Source of the DNA: a virus
DNA length: 54,995 nucleotides
Strand: one strand, 5' to 3'
IMG/VR virus record: IMGVR_UViG_3300027418_000012
Location: 1-54,995 of that record
Shown here: piece by piece, positions 979 through 54,995 of the stretch
Numbering within the stretch: position 1 is the first letter of the stretch
How the letters are laid out: each line of letters opens with the position of its first letter
Translations under genes and position numbers: made by a program
The notes under the pieces: model-generated
The model's input: only the letters and a program-made list of their open reading frames with translations
Databases searched by the model: none
What the model was told of the DNA's origin: nothing

Positions 979-1164
979 TGTTTACATTTAGCTAAAGTAA
1001 AAACACTACACATCTACAGGGACTATCCTTGATTATCCCCTGGTGTAGACCTTTAAGCAGTAAATCAAGCTATGTTGCTTATTGGACTTTTTCTTATTAA
1101 CTCCTCTGAGGGAGTATAAACCGTGTTAGGCTCAGAGCGTCCGTAGTATATCTACGGGGTCACC
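976..1164 (+). ncRNA. Structured leader with H-type pseudoknot
   Basis: Successive helices fill this gap. TAGTGTTT (976-983) pairs with AAACACTA (1001-1008). TCTACA/GGGA (1013-1022) pairs with TCCC/TGTAGA (1036-1049). TAAGCA (1054-1059) pairs with TGCTTA (1076-1081). A 5-bp stem ACTCC/GGAGT (1100-1115) has a loop TCTGAG that is exactly complementary to CTCAGA at 1131-1136, a textbook pseudoknot. CCGTAG/CTACGG (1141-1157) follows, and then GGGGTCACC 15 bases before the next ATG. This looks like a cis-regulatory RNA, but I cannot assign it to a known class. Confidence 0.55.
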
Positions 1165-6398: not shown

Positions 6399-6399
6399 A

Positions 6400-7053
6400 A
6401 GCTTTAATAGCAGCGGGCCAGGCTCAGATAAGCAGGTATTAGTACGCTATTTATATGTATAACTCCTGAGCCCCAGCTAACTTATAATTGTAATCACACT
6501 GAGCGTCTCCTCATTATAGCTGTGATGTATGTTGTTATTGAGTAATGACCAACAACAATTAAACTTATTAACTGATTATAGAAGACTCGTAAGACCCTGC
6601 GGGCTAGGTCAGCTATAATGGTTAAAAATAAAGATCTGATCCTAAGTGCCTATCATTAGTTCTTGTCTCGTTCGTCAAACAGTTCCGTCATTTAGTAGTA
6701 CGACATGTGTATTGAGCTCCGTCAAACGAAAGATGGTCATACCTAGTAGCATTACGTAATAGTACAAAAGTAGTCCTTGAGATAGATCTTTTTTAAAATA
6801 TTACCAAGTTGAAGTCAGTGGCAATAAAACCGGCCACGTGAACTGTCCTCTTAGTATTGCACTGTAGAGAGCCACGATAAAACCGGATACTTGGGAGCAG
6901 TTGATGAAATGCACGTCTGGAAGCTGTTAAACATAAGAACCTGAACAGATAAACCAGAATAATACATACAGTAAGAATTCCAGGTCTGACTGTAAAGTAA
7001 TCAATGATTTAGAAGTGGTGGAGTTTTTAATAGATCTCCACTACTTCTTTTTT
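6400..7053 (+). ncRNA. Large ornate non-coding RNA candidate, about 650 nt
   Basis: No gene is credible in this 660-base stretch, yet it carries many exact long-range complements. Examples are GGCTCAG/CTGAGCC (6421-6472), ATCACA/TGTGAT (6493-6526), an 11-bp CATTATAGCTG/CAGCTATAATG (6512-6620), GTTGTT/AACAAC (6531-6556), AAAGATCT/AGATCTTT (6630-6791) and GTGGC/GCCAC (6818-6837). It ends in its own terminator, immediately before a tmRNA. Size, complexity and company recall the large ornate phage RNAs GOLLD and ROOL, which occur near phage tRNA genes. I cannot confirm membership from sequence alone, and the 5' end is a guess. Confidence 0.65.
7011..7053 (+). terminator. Strong terminator ending the large RNA
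   Basis: AGAAGTGGTGGAG (7011-7023) pairs with CTCCACTACTTCT (7036-7048) over 13 bp with one G-U pair, followed by a run of T to 7053. It separates the large RNA from the tmRNA starting six bases later. Confidence 0.93.
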
Positions 7054-7058
7054 ATAAT

Positions 7059-7482
7059 GGGGCCGTATTGGTTTTGACAGATATGAGGAAGGTAGTATCA
7101 CATGTAAGCCTTGGAACAGGTAAACAAGTTCTAAACAATAACCGTAAAGAGTCAATCTGAGCGTGTTGCAGAAGGTGAAGCTATCTTAGCTTCTATCTTT
7201 GCTTCTGAGTATGCATTAGCAGCTTAGGCAACTGGGTGGTAACAACCTGGAAACAGAAAGTTACAAATGTTTTCTCTGTTATGTCAAAACAGAGTGGTGG
7301 ATGGTAAGCAGAACCTGCGTACCCCAATTTACTGATCAAGATGAAGCTTCGGACTGTAGTAAATACGCAAGCTTGAAACATAGGAAACGCTACAGCAAAT
7401 TCCTATATCAAATAGATCTAAGCATGTAAGAACGGTATTATTGTCACGTATTTGGACAGGGGTTCAACTCCCCTCGGCTCCA
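7059..7482 (+). ncRNA. ssrA: Transfer-messenger RNA (tmRNA)
   Basis: tmRNA rescues stalled ribosomes and tags the unfinished protein for proteolysis. The 5' end GGGGCCG (7059-7065) pairs with CGGCTCC (7475-7481) as the acceptor stem, with one G-U pair. The T-arm AGGGG/TTCAACT/CCCCT lies at 7458-7474, and the D-loop region reads GGTTTTGACAG. CTAAGCATGTA (7418-7428) matches the conserved 3' part of bacterial tmRNAs. The tag frame ends at TAG 7225-7227 and reads GEAILASIFASEYALAA from 7174; the exact resume codon may be up to two codons earlier. The final ALAA is the usual protease signal. CCA is not encoded. No SmpB gene was recognised in the window, so host SmpB would be needed. Confidence 0.93.
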
Positions 7483-7500
7483 CACATTAAAAACAACATT

Positions 7501-14452: not shown

Positions 14453-14872
14453 ATGGCAATTCAAAAAGAAAACGTGTCAATTGATGTCCAAGACATCATT
14501 GAATTATTACACAGTGGTTACACTTGGTTTAAGAAAGATGATCTTGGCTACGGCTCTATTCAAGAGAAGTTTAACGCTCTAGATATTCATATTAAGACTA
14601 TCCAGAAGCATCCTGAATTAGCAAATGTAGATACAATAGCTAAGGTATTTGTAATTACTAATAGAAATAAAACAGATAATGGATCAACAACCACCAATGA
14701 CATTAGTGTCAAACGAGATGAGATCAATTTGGGGGGCTTACCTAAGACTGATGACAGGAATACAAGATCTACAGATACAAGCATCCTATCTCAAGTCAAC
14801 AACGGAACTCCTGGAACTAGCACAGCAGAAAGTAGTGAACAAAATGATCTCTCAGCCTTTGCCAATCTCTAA
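14453..14872 (+). CDS. Hypothetical protein, 139 aa
   Basis: The first ~70 residues look folded and helical (ENVSIDVQDIIELLHSGYTW; FNALDIHIKTIQKHPE). The rest is Ser/Thr/Asn-rich and disordered (NKTDNGSTTTNDISVK and onward). It stops 4 bases before the chosen start of the AAA ATPase gene, so it could be an adaptor or substrate for the ATPase/VWA pair. This rests on position only. Confidence 0.6.
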   Translation: MAIQKENVSIDVQDIIELLHSGYTWFKKDDLGYGSIQEKFNALDIHIKTIQKHPELANVDTIAKVFVITNRNKTDNGSTTTNDISVKRDEINLGGLPKTDDRNTRSTDTSILSQVNNGTPGTSTAESSEQNDLSAFANL

Positions 14873-14876
14873 TCCT

Positions 14877-16277
14877 ATGAAACCTTTAAGACCTAGTCCT
14901 ACAATGAGTGCAACACAGTTTGCTGTAGGACGTCAATTAATAGGTAATGATAATAATATATGGGAAGTAACTGCTACATCAGCAGGTATACACAGATGGG
15001 TAAAAGCTAAATATGTTCAATCAGGTACTTTTCATCCTAGTGCATTTAACATACCTAGTACACAGATATCAAATATTAGCATTGACCCCAATGCTCAACA
15101 ATCATTTAAATACAAACAAAATAACATGTCTAAAGTAAAATCTATTACAAAAAAATCTACTCAAGAAGTGAGAACAATTGACACCTCTTTAATTAATAAA
15201 GAAGAAGTGTTTAAAATGCTAGCATTAGCAGAAGCTACAGGCTTACCCTGCTTATTAGTAGGTGCACCAGGTGTTGCTAAAACTAAAACTATAATTGACT
15301 ATGCTAAAGCATGGTTAAACAGAGACGGTAATATGACCGCAGAAGATTTTGCTAATAAAATCTACATACTAGAGACTGACGAAGGTACTAAAGCATCAGA
15401 GATTAAGGGTATGCCTGACTTAGGTAAGTTATTCACTGATAACAAGTATGAGCTTAACACTCCTATTGCTGATGCAGAGATTGTAATCATCAACGAGGTG
15501 GATAAAGCTAGCTCTGGTATCCGTAATGCTATGCTAGGTGTAATGAACGAGAAGTTCTTATTCAACGGTAAGCACAAGATCCCATGTAAGTGGAAGTTAT
15601 TTGTAGCTACCTGTAATGAGATTCCTAAAGATGAGACAGGATCTCCTTTCTGGGACCGTTTTATGTTGAAGATGACTGTAAATCGTGTATCTGCAGGTGA
15701 ATTAGCTAAATATTTTAGCAAAGGAGCTCGTAACTACAGAGAGAAGTTTTCTATTGGTGTACCTAATAAGCAAGAAATTGAGAGTTTAGAAGTACCGGCA
15801 AATAAATTAGAGAAATATCTTGAGGTGGGTTATCAGCATAGCTCAGATCGTACATTAACATTTGTACCTAGTCTGACTAAAGCAGTTAGTTACATTTGGG
15901 ATATCAGTCTTGATAAAGCTCTTGTAAAAACAGCTCAGATTATGATCTCACAAAATGCAGGTTCAGAATTACAAAACAAGTTGATGAGTCCAGAAGTTAA
16001 GGCAGTTATGTCTAAGGTAGAGATGTTACATTCTCATAGCTCTAATGAGCAATTAGAACTAGCTATAGCTGAAATTGAAAGCTTAATCAATACTTATACA
16101 TCTCGTGGTATTATGGATGAAGGTCAAGTAGACGAAATAGAATTATCTATGCAGTATATTTTACAAAATCACCCAGCTAGAGAAACTCAATTGACTGAAG
16201 ATTTTGAAGCTATGATGTCTGAAGCAGAAGTATTTGCTGATGTAGCACTTCAAAATGGTTCTAGTAATCCTTTCTAG
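14877..16277 (+). CDS. MoxR/CobS-type AAA+ ATPase
   Basis: A chaperone-like AAA+ ATPase. Walker A is VGAPGVAKTKT (about residues 127-137 from this start). Walker B is IVIINEVDKA, with NE in place of the commoner DE. The sensor-like VATCNEIP and the arginine-bearing helix near FWDRFMLKM are in order. MoxR-family proteins work with a VWA partner to remodel target proteins or insert metals; the next gene encodes a VWA protein. Start 14877 follows the previous stop by four bases. ATG 15126 is an alternative that would drop an N-terminal domain containing GNDNNIWEVTATSAGIHRW. Confidence 0.88.
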   Translation: MKPLRPSPTMSATQFAVGRQLIGNDNNIWEVTATSAGIHRWVKAKYVQSGTFHPSAFNIPSTQISNISIDPNAQQSFKYKQNNMSKVKSITKKSTQEVRTIDTSLINKEEVFKMLALAEATGLPCLLVGAPGVAKTKTIIDYAKAWLNRDGNMTAEDFANKIYILETDEGTKASEIKGMPDLGKLFTDNKYELNTPIADAEIVIINEVDKASSGIRNAMLGVMNEKFLFNGKHKIPCKWKLFVATCNEIPKDETGSPFWDRFMLKMTVNRVSAGELAKYFSKGARNYREKFSIGVPNKQEIESLEVPANKLEKYLEVGYQHSSDRTLTFVPSLTKAVSYIWDISLDKALVKTAQIMISQNAGSELQNKLMSPEVKAVMSKVEMLHSHSSNEQLELAIAEIESLINTYTSRGIMDEGQVDEIELSMQYILQNHPARETQLTEDFEAMMSEAEVFADVALQNGSSNPF

Positions 16278-49427: not shown

Positions 49428-52400
49428 TTAGCAAGTAAATGGATCTTTTTCATCTAGGTCCTCATTATTATCTATCTGATCTGTTAAATCTTTATCCTTT
49501 TTAGTAGGAGTATTTTTTTCTTTAAACATATCAGGGAATAATTCTCTAGCACTTACATAGCCACCCATCATCAATTTAGTACTAACATCAGCTTCTTTAC
49601 TGCTGTTGTTCTCTAAAATTGACTCTTGATTAGGATCAGTATACAATTCTAGCATCTTATTTCCATTACCTAATTTACTTATAGGTAAGTATAAAGTGTT
49701 TCCTTTCTTATCTTTTAAATCAGACTTTTGGAAAAGAACTGGTTCAAAAGCCTTAAACACTGTTTTATTCTTCTTCATCTCTCTATACTCTTCCTTACTC
49801 ACCTTAGGATTCTTAATATATTTTACATAGAAGTCATGCACAATTGCAGAACTTTCAGGATTAATACTAAGACTTCCGCCTCTCACCTTTAACCAGTAAG
49901 GAGCTTTTGGAACAATACTTCTATTAGTCCAGTTGTTCTGATGGAAAGTTCTCCAAACTTGCTCTGTGTCAATTTTAGGATCAGCTTTGAATTTATCTAG
50001 AATAGTCTTAACTAGCTCAGAGTAAATTTCAGTACTTAATATCTTTTTAAAATCAACAAAACTAGATTGTAAACCTGATTGCAAGATACTAAATTTGGCT
50101 AAATTATCTGTAAAAGTAAGCAAATCATTATCTGCAGTTTCCTGAGCATACTCCTTTAAGTTATTTAAAGCTTCAATTACATTGTTAATTTGGAATGTAT
50201 CCATTCTATTTCTAAACAACATGATGTTATCAGTCTTGGTAGCATCGTCAGTCATTAACGGAAGTAGTTCCTTAATAACTAAGTTATCTGAAATATTAGG
50301 GTCTATAGAGTTTTTATAGTCATAAAGCTTTTTAGCCATGGTACCACCACTTGTAAAGAAGTCCTTATACAAGCTGTTCATCACCTTAGTCTTACCATCA
50401 TTATCTACGAAAGGTGTAGTATGTAATACATAACCAATAACATGATTCTGATACCTATTAATTAGATTAGTAACATCATCCTTTGTAAAAAAATACTCTG
50501 GGTCATCAATCTTACTATACAATGGTTGGAACACCTCTTGTAATTCAGGGCTTAAAGTGATAAAGAAGTTCTTAAACATATTAAATATATCTTCCTTTTG
50601 AGCTTTCATCTCACCTAGGAATGTATTATCTAATACTGATTCTGGATTATTAACAAACTCTTCAGAAGCCGATCTTTCCCATCTAGCTATCTGTAACATA
50701 TTTTCTTGAGTGGTACGAGTCTTATTGGTATCGTAGCTAGTAGCCTGCATAAAGTTACTTAAGAATCTAGATTGAGATTCATATTGTAAGTAGTTCATTA
50801 GTACAGAGATTTGTAATGCTGCATCTGCTCTATCACCATTAGAAACACCTTGCTTAAGTTCAGATAAGCTATAAGACCCTTTGCTTTGATCCACCTCATT
50901 AAGCTGCTTAAGAATGCTAGCTTTCATAGCTGATTGTACACCAGCTGGGGAATCTTCTACAGAAGCTAATTTAGCTTTTAAATTACCACCAGTTAATCTA
51001 TCATAATACGGAGCTATCACTTTGTAAAATAAGTCTTGTCTAATTAACTCTTCACCGTTAATCTTCTTAAAGTTAGATTTGTTCTTACCTAGCTCTGTAA
51101 AATAACTATCTAATATAGGTTGGTTAAAGAAATATGCAAGCTCATTTACAGGTACACCATGATGTTGTAAATAAAACCATGTACCTGCAGTGTTTAAAGA
51201 GAAGTTTAAGTCAAATACAAACGGATTCTTAGCCCCGTCCACAAATCCAGATAGAGCTTCTGACATTAAATCAGATATAGTGTCTCCATTTACATCTGTA
51301 ATGTGACCTATGTTGTATAAGTTATCCTCTGTTTTAGGATGATGACTCAGTTTAATATTAATACTTCTTTGAGTCTCATCTTTGCCAGCTAAGTATTTAA
51401 TACCGCTAGTCTTAAACACTGAATTAAGTTTCAATCCGCTCACCTGAGCTATAGCATGTAAAGTGGAATGTAATGCTGCAATACCTACCATTCTCTTAGC
51501 AGTTAAGTATCTCTCTCTAGTAGTAGCAGATCCTACAAAGGTTCTTAAATAAGTAGGAGACTTCTCGTCTTCTTCTAATTTAGTACCTGCAGCCACCTTA
51601 GCTTTCTTAATAGTTTCAGCCAACACTTCTAAGTTCTCTGTAGTGTTAGGAACAACTAGTTGTGAGTAGTTTTCAGGACGTAGGATAAGCTCAGACATAA
51701 CATTGATAAGCTTATTCTGTAAACCTTCTTTGTCTACATCATTAGCAGGAGTATATATTAAAGATTTCTTTCCTCTATACTGAGCATTATAACGACTTAA
51801 TCCTTGTTTAAAGAACGCAAAGTCTTCTTGAGTTTTCTTGTCTTTAGCTATATCACTCAAAGAAGTCAGAGCTCCTTTAGATAATCTACCCTCATCTGTG
51901 TAAGTAGATCTATTAATCTCTTTAATTTGAGTACTACTTAAAGAATTTAATAAGTCATTAGCATACCTCTCATCTTTACCACGAGCTACCATATCAGCAA
52001 TCATGAAGTCTTTAAACTTCTTACTACTATAGTCAGCTACTACTACAGAAGAATTAGGTAAGTAGATGTTTAATTTATCTATATCAAAGTCAGATCCGGC
52101 TTTACCTACAATCTCAGATGGAACCACAATCATGTCTCCATTTGTAGAAGGAGTAAATCCTTTTATTACAATAGCTTCAATTGAGTTAGGAGCCTGTGTA
52201 GGAATACGGAATCCAATACCTTTTAATAACTGAGAATCTATATTACCATTAACTTTATAAACACCATTTTCTAAAACCATTCCTAATTCCTCAGGAGTAA
52301 CTTCTTTAAATGGCCAGCTAATATACACTTCCATACCTGCAATCTTTCCGTTTTCATTACGGTAGAATTTAAGATCTGAAGACTGCATACGAACACTAGC

Positions 52401-54995
52401 TTTTTCATCTTTACTTAACGTAAGTATAGCTTCCTTAGTTAATTTAACATACTTACCATCTTTTAGATATGCGTAGTCTCTTGGGTTCCTCTCATAAAGT
52501 GTGCTTGCTACTTGTACTGAAGCTTTACCGCTCATCTTCTCAGATATAACACGAGAGTCAACAATAGAGTTTAAGATGTTATCTATCTTGTCTTTATTGA
52601 TAAGAGTATCAAATGGATACTGCAATTCTTGTGTATCATCTTGGTTAATGATATAGTTAATAGCATTAACTATGTTCTCTGGTAAGTTTCTTTTCTCAGC
52701 CTCAGCCTTTAGTGTACGTACTAATTTAGAAAGATCTTTTACAACGTATTGATTATCAACCTTTTCTAATCCTAATTCTCCAAGTAGGGATTGTTTACCC
52801 AACTTAATCATCTTAGTAATAATATCATTATATTCAGCTATAAGCTTGCCTATCTCTTCGTTGATAGGAGCACCATTACTAAAGAAGTTAGTCATAACAA
52901 TCTTACTAACCTGAGTACCACGAACTACATACTGCTTTGGTTTACTAGACTGCTCCACTTGAATACCATAGAACTTACTATACAACTCTTGACGTGGTAA
53001 AGACTCTGGTAAAGTGTATTTATTATTTACAACTTGTACATTAGCACTTCCGTCTTCAGAATAGATAGATAAGAATTCATTATCTTCTGTAGTTACATTA
53101 CCCACCTTTTGACCTGATTCAAAACCAATAACATCTACTTGCTCATTTTGAGCAGCTAAATATAATGATTCAAATTGTGTACCTTCTATGTGACGGTAAA
53201 ACTTGGGTTGCAACGAGTGCTTTAAAAATACAGGATGAGTTAGATTATCAGTCTTAGCATATCCAAAGTATTGAGGCTTAAGAACTTGGAATATAAATCC
53301 AGGATCTCCTTTCTCATATATTTCTTTAGAAGATTCAATCTCAGCTTTTGTATAAGTTTTATATTCAGGACTTGACTTACCCACCTTAGTACCATTTGCT
53401 TTCTTAATAGAACCAGAGCGTACTAATTTCTCATAAGCCATTTCATAATTCCATTGTACTTCAGCTTGGTTGTTAAACTTACCACTCATGAATAAGATGT
53501 CTCTGATAGCATCAGGTAAACCCATTGCCATAGCATCTGCTTCTACTAAGTTCATATAAGCTTTAACACTACCTGTAAACTTACCACTCTTCATAATGAA
53601 TCCTGTAAGTTGACCTTGATCATCAAAACGTGCACCAATCTTAGACTCAGCTTTTTCTTTAGTTAAGTTGTTCTGAATCAATTGAGCGTATGTATTTTCT
53701 ACAATGTCTTTATGGAAAAGACTAGCTACGTTCATATCTTTAAATGATATGTTCTTTATAGTCTGATGTACATCTTTAGCACGCTGCTTACCATCATTAC
53801 GTACCATATTGTTATCCATCCATGCTACTACATCAGTATCTTCTACTAATGCCTCCTTGTTAGAAGTGGCACCGTTAGCACGCTTAGGTAAGTCTTTGTA
53901 CATAGCCGGGTGACCATATATAACTTTATGTTGCTCAGTTAGCAAGATCTCTTTATTGATAGCAAGGATACCAGCAAGATTGTTAATGTCATCTTCTGTG
54001 TAACCACTACGCTCTAGATTCTCAGAATCTTTTCCTAATGTTCTATATCTAATGTTTTGAGTCTCACCCAATCCTAAAATAGTATTAAGTGTATCATTAT
54101 CAATAGCATCTGTAATATATAATTCACTAGAGAAAGCTGCAGGCTTTACAAACAAGTCTTGACTCTTTAAAAACTCTGCAGTTTCTGCTATCTTATCATT
54201 TAGATAGTTCTTAATCTTAGTTTTTATCTTAGCATCATTAGCTTCAACAAACTCTTCAAAGTTTTCATATTTAGGTTCTTCAGAAAGAACATCTGATTTA
54301 AACTTGTTAATCAAGTCTTTACCTAAGATATCTCTAAAGTGCCCAAGATTGTACACCCCGGTATTCTCATCTTGATAGTACTGAATGTTTATAGGATCTT
54401 GAGATTGTATTACAGCTGCAGACATTTCATCAGCCAATTGAGCCATATACTTGTCAATGATTGCAGTGTCATTAAACTCCTGCATATCACGCACATCTTT
54501 AGAATTCACTATTAACTTACCAGGAATGCTAATACCATATTCAGTGCTCTTATCAGAGTTAATATTAGAGAACACTATGTTCTGTAATAGGTAATGAATC
54601 TCATTAGCTACTCTCTCAGGGAATTGAAGCTTAGCTGTATTAGCACCGTCTACATCACTGATACCTGTACCAGAAATAACATGGTACTTAAGGTTTGTAT
54701 TTCTTTTACGTCTACCCGCTTTGTCAAACAGAATACCTCCAGCCTTTAAAAGCTCAGAGTTAGTTTGATATGCATTAAGAACTACGTTGTCATCTTCATC
54801 AATAAAGCCTAACCAAGGACATGTTTGCACAAGTTCCTTTTGAGACTTAACTGTATTTAAAGTGTTAATAGTATTACTTAACAATGAAGGGATATTAACA
54901 GAATACTGTGTTTCTCCCTCAGCATTTAAATAACTAAGAACATTATCTTCACTATTAAACTTAGATTCTATACTAATAAGTGTACTAAGTCTACC
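49428..54995 (-). CDS. Virion RNA polymerase of crAss-like phage, 5' end outside window
   Basis: The frame is open to the right edge, so the protein is at least 1855 aa and its start is not in the window; a TTG at 54884 is only an internal codon. Near residue 968 of the visible part, KAGSDFDIDKLNIY carries DFDID, the catalytic metal-binding motif of the two-barrel RNA polymerases of crAss-like phages (related to YonO and eukaryotic RdRPs). Flanking segments, such as GIGFRIPTQAPNSIEAIVIK and VVPSEIVGKAG, fit the active-site barrel. This enzyme travels in the virion and transcribes early phage genes. Together with the neighbouring giant protein it forms the block typical of the order. Confidence 0.93.
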   Translation of the reverse strand, partial: GRLSTLISIESKFNSEDNVLSYLNAEGETQYSVNIPSLLSNTINTLNTVKSQKELVQTCPWLGFIDEDDNVVLNAYQTNSELLKAGGILFDKAGRRKRNTNLKYHVISGTGISDVDGANTAKLQFPERVANEIHYLLQNIVFSNINSDKSTEYGISIPGKLIVNSKDVRDMQEFNDTAIIDKYMAQLADEMSAAVIQSQDPINIQYYQDENTGVYNLGHFRDILGKDLINKFKSDVLSEEPKYENFEEFVEANDAKIKTKIKNYLNDKIAETAEFLKSQDLFVKPAAFSSELYITDAIDNDTLNTILGLGETQNIRYRTLGKDSENLERSGYTEDDINNLAGILAINKEILLTEQHKVIYGHPAMYKDLPKRANGATSNKEALVEDTDVVAWMDNNMVRNDGKQRAKDVHQTIKNISFKDMNVASLFHKDIVENTYAQLIQNNLTKEKAESKIGARFDDQGQLTGFIMKSGKFTGSVKAYMNLVEADAMAMGLPDAIRDILFMSGKFNNQAEVQWNYEMAYEKLVRSGSIKKANGTKVGKSSPEYKTYTKAEIESSKEIYEKGDPGFIFQVLKPQYFGYAKTDNLTHPVFLKHSLQPKFYRHIEGTQFESLYLAAQNEQVDVIGFESGQKVGNVTTEDNEFLSIYSEDGSANVQVVNNKYTLPESLPRQELYSKFYGIQVEQSSKPKQYVVRGTQVSKIVMTNFFSNGAPINEEIGKLIAEYNDIITKMIKLGKQSLLGELGLEKVDNQYVVKDLSKLVRTLKAEAEKRNLPENIVNAINYIINQDDTQELQYPFDTLINKDKIDNILNSIVDSRVISEKMSGKASVQVASTLYERNPRDYAYLKDGKYVKLTKEAILTLSKDEKASVRMQSSDLKFYRNENGKIAGMEVYISWPFKEVTPEELGMVLENGVYKVNGNIDSQLLKGIGFRIPTQAPNSIEAIVIKGFTPSTNGDMIVVPSEIVGKAGSDFDIDKLNIYLPNSSVVVADYSSKKFKDFMIADMVARGKDERYANDLLNSLSSTQIKEINRSTYTDEGRLSKGALTSLSDIAKDKKTQEDFAFFKQGLSRYNAQYRGKKSLIYTPANDVDKEGLQNKLINVMSELILRPENYSQLVVPNTTENLEVLAETIKKAKVAAGTKLEEDEKSPTYLRTFVGSATTRERYLTAKRMVGIAALHSTLHAIAQVSGLKLNSVFKTSGIKYLAGKDETQRSINIKLSHHPKTEDNLYNIGHITDVNGDTISDLMSEALSGFVDGAKNPFVFDLNFSLNTAGTWFYLQHHGVPVNELAYFFNQPILDSYFTELGKNKSNFKKINGEELIRQDLFYKVIAPYYDRLTGGNLKAKLASVEDSPAGVQSAMKASILKQLNEVDQSKGSYSLSELKQGVSNGDRADAALQISVLMNYLQYESQSRFLSNFMQATSYDTNKTRTTQENMLQIARWERSASEEFVNNPESVLDNTFLGEMKAQKEDIFNMFKNFFITLSPELQEVFQPLYSKIDDPEYFFTKDDVTNLINRYQNHVIGYVLHTTPFVDNDGKTKVMNSLYKDFFTSGGTMAKKLYDYKNSIDPNISDNLVIKELLPLMTDDATKTDNIMLFRNRMDTFQINNVIEALNNLKEYAQETADNDLLTFTDNLAKFSILQSGLQSSFVDFKKILSTEIYSELVKTILDKFKADPKIDTEQVWRTFHQNNWTNRSIVPKAPYWLKVRGGSLSINPESSAIVHDFYVKYIKNPKVSKEEYREMKKNKTVFKAFEPVLFQKSDLKDKKGNTLYLPISKLGNGNKMLELYTDPNQESILENNSSKEADVSTKLMMGGYVSARELFPDMFKEKNTPTKKDKDLTDQIDNNEDLDEKDPFTC

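Follow-up and report, generated by a model that had tools for sequence, protein, structure and literature searches.

A tmRNA with a long tag and a conserved extension in a crAss-like phage record and its relatives

Introduction

The viral record IMGVR_UViG_3300027418_000012 of IMG/VR, analyzed here over its whole 54,995 nucleotides (hereafter, the window), carries a tmRNA-like locus near position 7059, which raises the question of where the encoded tag begins, how far it is kept among related phages, and what a phage could do with a tag of its own. The original prediction proposed a complete, phage-encoded tmRNA with a tag of about 17 codons, longer than those of Bacteroidota. Phage-borne tmRNAs as such are already known, as in mycobacteriophages Bxz1 and Wildcat, Bacillus phage G, and Melnitz (PMC4131195, PMC9004378), the last being two-piece, whereas the window encodes a one-piece molecule. 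To call them rare is roughly fair, given 402 carriers among 18,146 phage genomes in the portion of the survey covered here (PMC9004378). In the parts of the tmRNA literature that we consulted, however, including the 2025 tmRNA database paper (PMC11915505), we found no description of long phage tags, nor of a class in which such tags are conserved. According to the same parts, tags are most often 10 aa long (PMC11915505) and range over 8–35 aa (review, PMC8012679).

Carrier and anatomy of the tmRNA gene

The window ORF 49428–54884 (1818 aa) matches the RNA polymerase genes of crAss-like phages, including Bacteroides phages and Cellulophaga phage phi14:2, and carries GSD[FY]D[IV]DK, a motif of the DFDID type. 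This giant RNA polymerase on the same record upholds the phage origin proposed for the tmRNA. Another ORF (1640 aa) matches uncultured phage cr108_1, and the record further has DnaB-type helicase, primase, DNA polymerase, and Sak4-type genes; a PHROGs scan of 20 window proteins showed no capsid, portal, or terminase. At 55 kb, the record probably covers just part of a phage genome, its gene content places it among the crAss-like phages, and its crAss-like relatives point to Bacteroidota as the likely host phylum. The window also encodes a MoxR-type AAA ATPase (14679–16277, plus strand; PF20030, E 2.5e-24) and a Pistol self-cleaving ribozyme (1100–1164, plus strand; RF02679, 47.3 bits).

ARAGORN calls a one-piece, ssrA-like tmRNA gene at 7059–7483 (plus strand, as are all features of the locus given below), the sole RNA gene that it finds in the 54,995 bases; it reports no tRNA gene in 1–54995. 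The Rfam tmRNA model RF00023 matches 7059–7485 over its full length (model positions 1–374 of 374) with 88.3 bits (E 5.6e-33), far from zero and well above the gathering score of 47. The 5′ strand of the acceptor stem, GGGGCCG (7059–7065), pairs at all seven positions with CGGCTCC, which is followed by a discriminator A (7475–7482). The acceptor-stem scan places G3 (7061) opposite a U (7479), forming the G3:U70 pair that we take to be the identity element for alanyl-tRNA synthetase. The T-arm AGGGGTTCAACTCCCCT (7458–7474), apparent in the sequence and in the Rfam alignment, and the signature CTAAGCATGTA (7418–7428) are likewise present, so that the prediction of a complete tmRNA stands. CCA is only partly encoded, CAC coming next after the discriminator. 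Reading by eye with the Rfam alignment as a guide, we located a putative PK1-like pseudoknot (CCU/AGG and GGAAC/GUUCU, 7109–7132) ending 11 nt 5′ of the resume codon.

Directly 5′ of the gene lies a strong, terminator-like hairpin of 13 bp followed by a T-run (7011–7048; −23 kcal/mol, z −6.5), which is absent from the output of a simple terminator scan. Its motif AAGTGGTGGAG recurs on the minus strand at 2911–2921. Ahead of it, about 600 bases (6399–7010) are without any ORF of at least 80 aa and contain two copies of ATAAAACCGG.

Start of the tag

ARAGORN reads the tag from offset 86, which yields a frame of 27 codons, VKSQSERVAEGEAILASIFASEYALAA (7144–7224), opening with the resume codon GTA (7144–7146) and closed by the stop codon TAG (7225–7227); relatives and the tag profile give the same frame. 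The predicted ending YALAA (7210–7224) lies in this frame and is degron-like when compared with host-phylum tags. The start, on the other hand, had been placed at a GGT that is codon 11, and the tag is thus 27 rather than about 17 codons long.

A scan with the tag profile found 39 further IMG/VR contigs encoding the same kind of tag, here called type 1. Together with the window these 40 sequences comprise 25 unique peptides and 29 unique DNA versions, with tags of 26 aa in 30 contigs and 27 aa in 10. ARAGORN recognizes a tmRNA in 23 of the 40, and the 17 that it missed were read separately. The frame opens with a GNN codon in every one (GCA in 12, GTA in 11, GGC in eight, GAC in five, and GCT in four), mostly preceded by AATAAAC or AATAACC; in the window the context is AATAACC|G, in relatives AATAAAC|G or a close variant. 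A comparable context precedes the resume codon in many of the 60 Bacteroidota tmRNAs described below. Across relatives, codons 7–10 differ at rates of 0.065, 0.048, and 0.233 at codon positions 1, 2, and 3, that is, mostly at the third position, as translation upstream of codon 11 predicts. We therefore place the resume codon at GTA 7144, on the combined evidence of the ARAGORN start, the spacing from the putative PK1-like element with its context and GNN start, and the coding-type variation of codons 7–10. A true start farther downstream, such as the GGT of codon 11 with a real tag of about 17 aa, would fit the variable amino acids of codons 1–6 and the shorter tags that ARAGORN favors in some relatives of a third type (below). 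We regard it as very improbable given the coding-type variation upstream of it and the context at codon 1, shared with many host tmRNAs; moreover, the "GE" with which such a tag would begin is not conserved, relatives having EGAS, EGDA, or EGAA there.

The type-1 tag has a core, R[VI]xEGxxIxAxxF, which in the window reads RVAEGEAILASIF (codons 7–19, 7162–7200). Among the 29 unique sequences, pN/pS is 0.35 for codons 7–19, as against 0.70 for codons 1–6 and 0.65 for codons 20–27; most relatives were found through tag peptide patterns, so that the amino-acid conservation is partly by construction, which does not apply to the synonymous changes. The latter include serine codon switches, at codon 3 among AGT, TCT, and TCA and at codon 17 among TCT, TCC, and AGC. 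Phages still share the core when their RNA polymerases are only 21%–55% identical to that of the window (eight relatives aligned), whereas the C-termini vary, with VAVAA, VAIAA, EAVAA, and others in place of YALAA. Of 36 records searched, among them three of a second tag type and many fragments, 13 (the window being one) have a crAss-like RNA polymerase. Flanking genes on both sides are common to many type-1 loci.

The acceptor stem pairs at 7/7 positions in 39 of the 40 contigs (L167 being the exception), and G3:U70 is found in all 39. The tmRNA of L149 scores just 17 bits in Rfam. Several relatives (L124 and L167, L145–L147, and L149) have unusually long 3′ halves with extra hairpins or inserts, which ARAGORN misses; L124 and L167 also carry a variant of the signature, CTAAGCTTGTA.

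Comparison with host tmRNAs

Of 61 Bacteroidota genomes, 60 have an RF00023 match. ARAGORN gave tags of 9–10 aa in 59 of these and of 14 aa in one; its calls for L190 and L207 were visibly misplaced and were re-read as 9 aa, bringing all 60 to 9–10 aa. The window tag is thus about three times as long as those of the probable host group, a stronger difference than originally claimed. Otherwise the molecules are much alike, sharing the G3:U70 stem, the T-arm, CTAAGCATGTA, a putative PK1-like element, a GNN resume codon (often in a TAAAC/T-G context), and a degron ending in Ala-Ala; what sets the window apart from tags such as GExxYALAA is the length of 27 aa and the conserved extension. The tag of mycobacteriophage Bxz1 is probably about 25 aa long. 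Mycoplasma, among the reduced bacteria, has tags of about 27 aa, which are similar in length but belong to cellular genes and are unrelated in sequence.

The long tag was not found among the sampled hosts. The two tag profiles match no tmRNA in 395 Bacteroidota genomes; such matches as there are (two genomes for each profile, E 0.003–0.006) are partial, lie inside long ORFs, and are about what chance would give. A scan of GTDB contigs with an 18-mer for a host tmRNA with the same start gave two chance matches, both outside a tmRNA context. The type-1 tag query matched no isolate phage. DNA matches in Gordonia phage cover 40 bases only, ARAGORN finds no tmRNA there, and we set them aside.

Further tag types

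A second tag type was first met in three contigs obtained with a general tmRNA pattern (which matched at least 119 stretches), and a profile scan extended it to 12 contigs with tags of 26–28 aa. A scan with the 34- and 35-aa tags described below yielded a third type in 57 contigs, of which 56 are readable (L408 being cut at the contig end): 39 tags of 35 aa, 16 of 37 aa, and one of 38 aa, ending in GLAA, GVAA, or VVAA. This range of 35–38 aa goes beyond the 8–35 aa in the part of the review covered here (PMC8012679). For type 3, pN/pS is 0.24 over codons 7–27 and 1.09 over codons 1–6. The acceptor stem could be located in 58 of the 68 tmRNAs of types 2 and 3, with G3:U70 in all 58. Types 1 and 2 share neighboring gene families on both sides, such as an upstream HTH gene (15/40 type-1 and 6/12 type-2 loci), and thus what seems to be a single locus carries different tag types. 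Comparison of the profiles gave nothing firm on the kinship of the types; post hoc pairwise shuffles (z about 4) are suggestive of a relationship between types 1 and 3 and between type 2 and part of type 3.

Eighty contigs chosen by their crAss-like RNA polymerase, and not by tag, held five tmRNAs, every one with a long tag: 23 aa (G481), 26 aa (type 1, in G432 and G416), 34 aa (G484), and 35 aa (G450). The other RF00023 matches in this sample are short and under the cut-off, and that of L324 at least lies in a tRNA cluster. Such a sparse distribution, even allowing for the many fragments in the sample, could suggest a functionless relic or a captured host gene. We consider this extremely improbable: the stems are intact, the frame is intact in all relatives, the neighborhood is conserved, the tag is under purifying selection, and no host with a type-1 tag turned up in either the GTDB 18-mer scan or the 395 Bacteroidota genomes.

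Possible roles of the tag

SmpB (PF01668) is absent from 15 of 16 records searched, namely, the window, 11 type-1 relatives, and three type-2 relatives. The sole match is on the contig of L031, where smpB adjoins an ssrA with a different tag, and which we therefore take to be bacterial. In the portion of the survey covered here, all smpB genes are on bacterial chromosomes except for two copies on one plasmid (PMC4131195), and hence none is in the phages that it covers. Since no phage SmpB was found, we presume that host SmpB is used.

The reading that we favor, and think reasonably probable, is a working phage tmRNA that uses host SmpB and encodes a host-like degron together with a phage-specific, conserved binding extension. 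A host synthetase would charge the molecule with alanine through G3:U70, and host SmpB would carry it into ribosomes stalled on truncated mRNAs during infection, where translation would resume at GTA 7144. The nascent chain would gain alanine and a two-part tag of 27 residues, consisting of the extension, about 19 residues (VKSQSERVAEGEAILASIF), and the C-terminal degron, YALAA in the window. The phage would regain ribosomes, and the product would pass to host Clp-type proteolysis, with the extension binding a protein, as an adaptor or tether, and so governing what becomes of the product or how fast it is degraded. We suggest a binding role because selection holds the amino acids of the extension while the degron varies; nothing points to a loss of Clp targeting, as a host-like degron is kept at the C-terminus.

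The lack of a phage SmpB is also what one would see if the tmRNA chiefly titrated host SmpB or outcompeted host tmRNA, the tag being secondary. According to the section covered here, phage DS6A encodes little beyond the tRNA-like domain, and strong inhibition of tmRNA is seen with a similar molecule (PMC4131195). A tag would be superfluous in a pure decoy, however, and all 40 type-1 contigs have an intact frame whose amino acids are under selection, which makes this explanation improbable. The extension might instead have no binding role, serving as a flexible spacer that exposes the degron to Clp and being conserved through recent ancestry or RNA constraints. The drift of codons 1–6 in types 1 and 3 and the distinct extension sequences at the same locus in types 1 and 2 are as expected of a spacer. 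We nevertheless find it unlikely, since a spacer would need no such constraint as that on codons 7–27 of type 3, and since the type-1 core persists between phages with strongly diverged RNA polymerases, through third-position changes and serine codon switches.

Two ideas on how a binding extension might work were set aside. The maximal helical moment does not clearly exceed that of shuffled sequences (mean z −0.61, −0.14, and 0.59 for types 1, 2, and 3), so that there is no structural support for an amphipathic binding helix, which is again compatible with a spacer. Nor did we find that the tag mimics another protein, whether of solved structure, in Pfam, or from host or phage: there was no match in PDB or Pfam, no convincing one in the 395 Bacteroidota genomes, and in all 14 phage records the tag profile matched nothing but the tmRNA itself. 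Taken together, a long tag that joins a conserved extension to a variable degron, found in several types at related loci, suggests that the phage needs the tag itself, beyond ribosome release. A bolder proposal, which we put forward tentatively as rather unlikely, is that crAss-like phages rewire trans-translation, their conserved extensions (in tags of 26–28 and 35–38 aa) recruiting an adaptor, sensor, or protease that is either chosen by the phage or the host's own; the fate of stalled products would then be set by the phage and not by the host tag.

Related frames in Flavobacterium psychrophilum phages

Among Flavobacterium psychrophilum phages, 29 GenBank records contain a 35-aa frame resembling type 3, with 62.9% identity in the 25 matches listed of the 29. 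In Fpv1 and Fpv20 it reads GNTNNSVVSLEDNAQVEANMNMAFSLIREDVAVAA. The Fpv20 tmRNA scores 58.2 bits against RF00023; ARAGORN finds no tmRNA in either phage, and neither record has a feature annotated at the site. As in type 1, the tag is extended, with a conserved middle and, in these phages, a VAVAA end, but it is 35 aa long and its extension differs in sequence from that of the window. Since phages of a culturable Flavobacterium carry this longer version, experiments can directly address whether proteins are tagged, which protease is used, and what its loss costs the phage in fitness.

One type-3 phage tmRNA (L376, 3209–3467) contains a Group I intron (91.8 bits) within its 3′ part; intron-bearing tmRNAs are known in bacteria, according to the part of the database paper covered here (PMC11915505).
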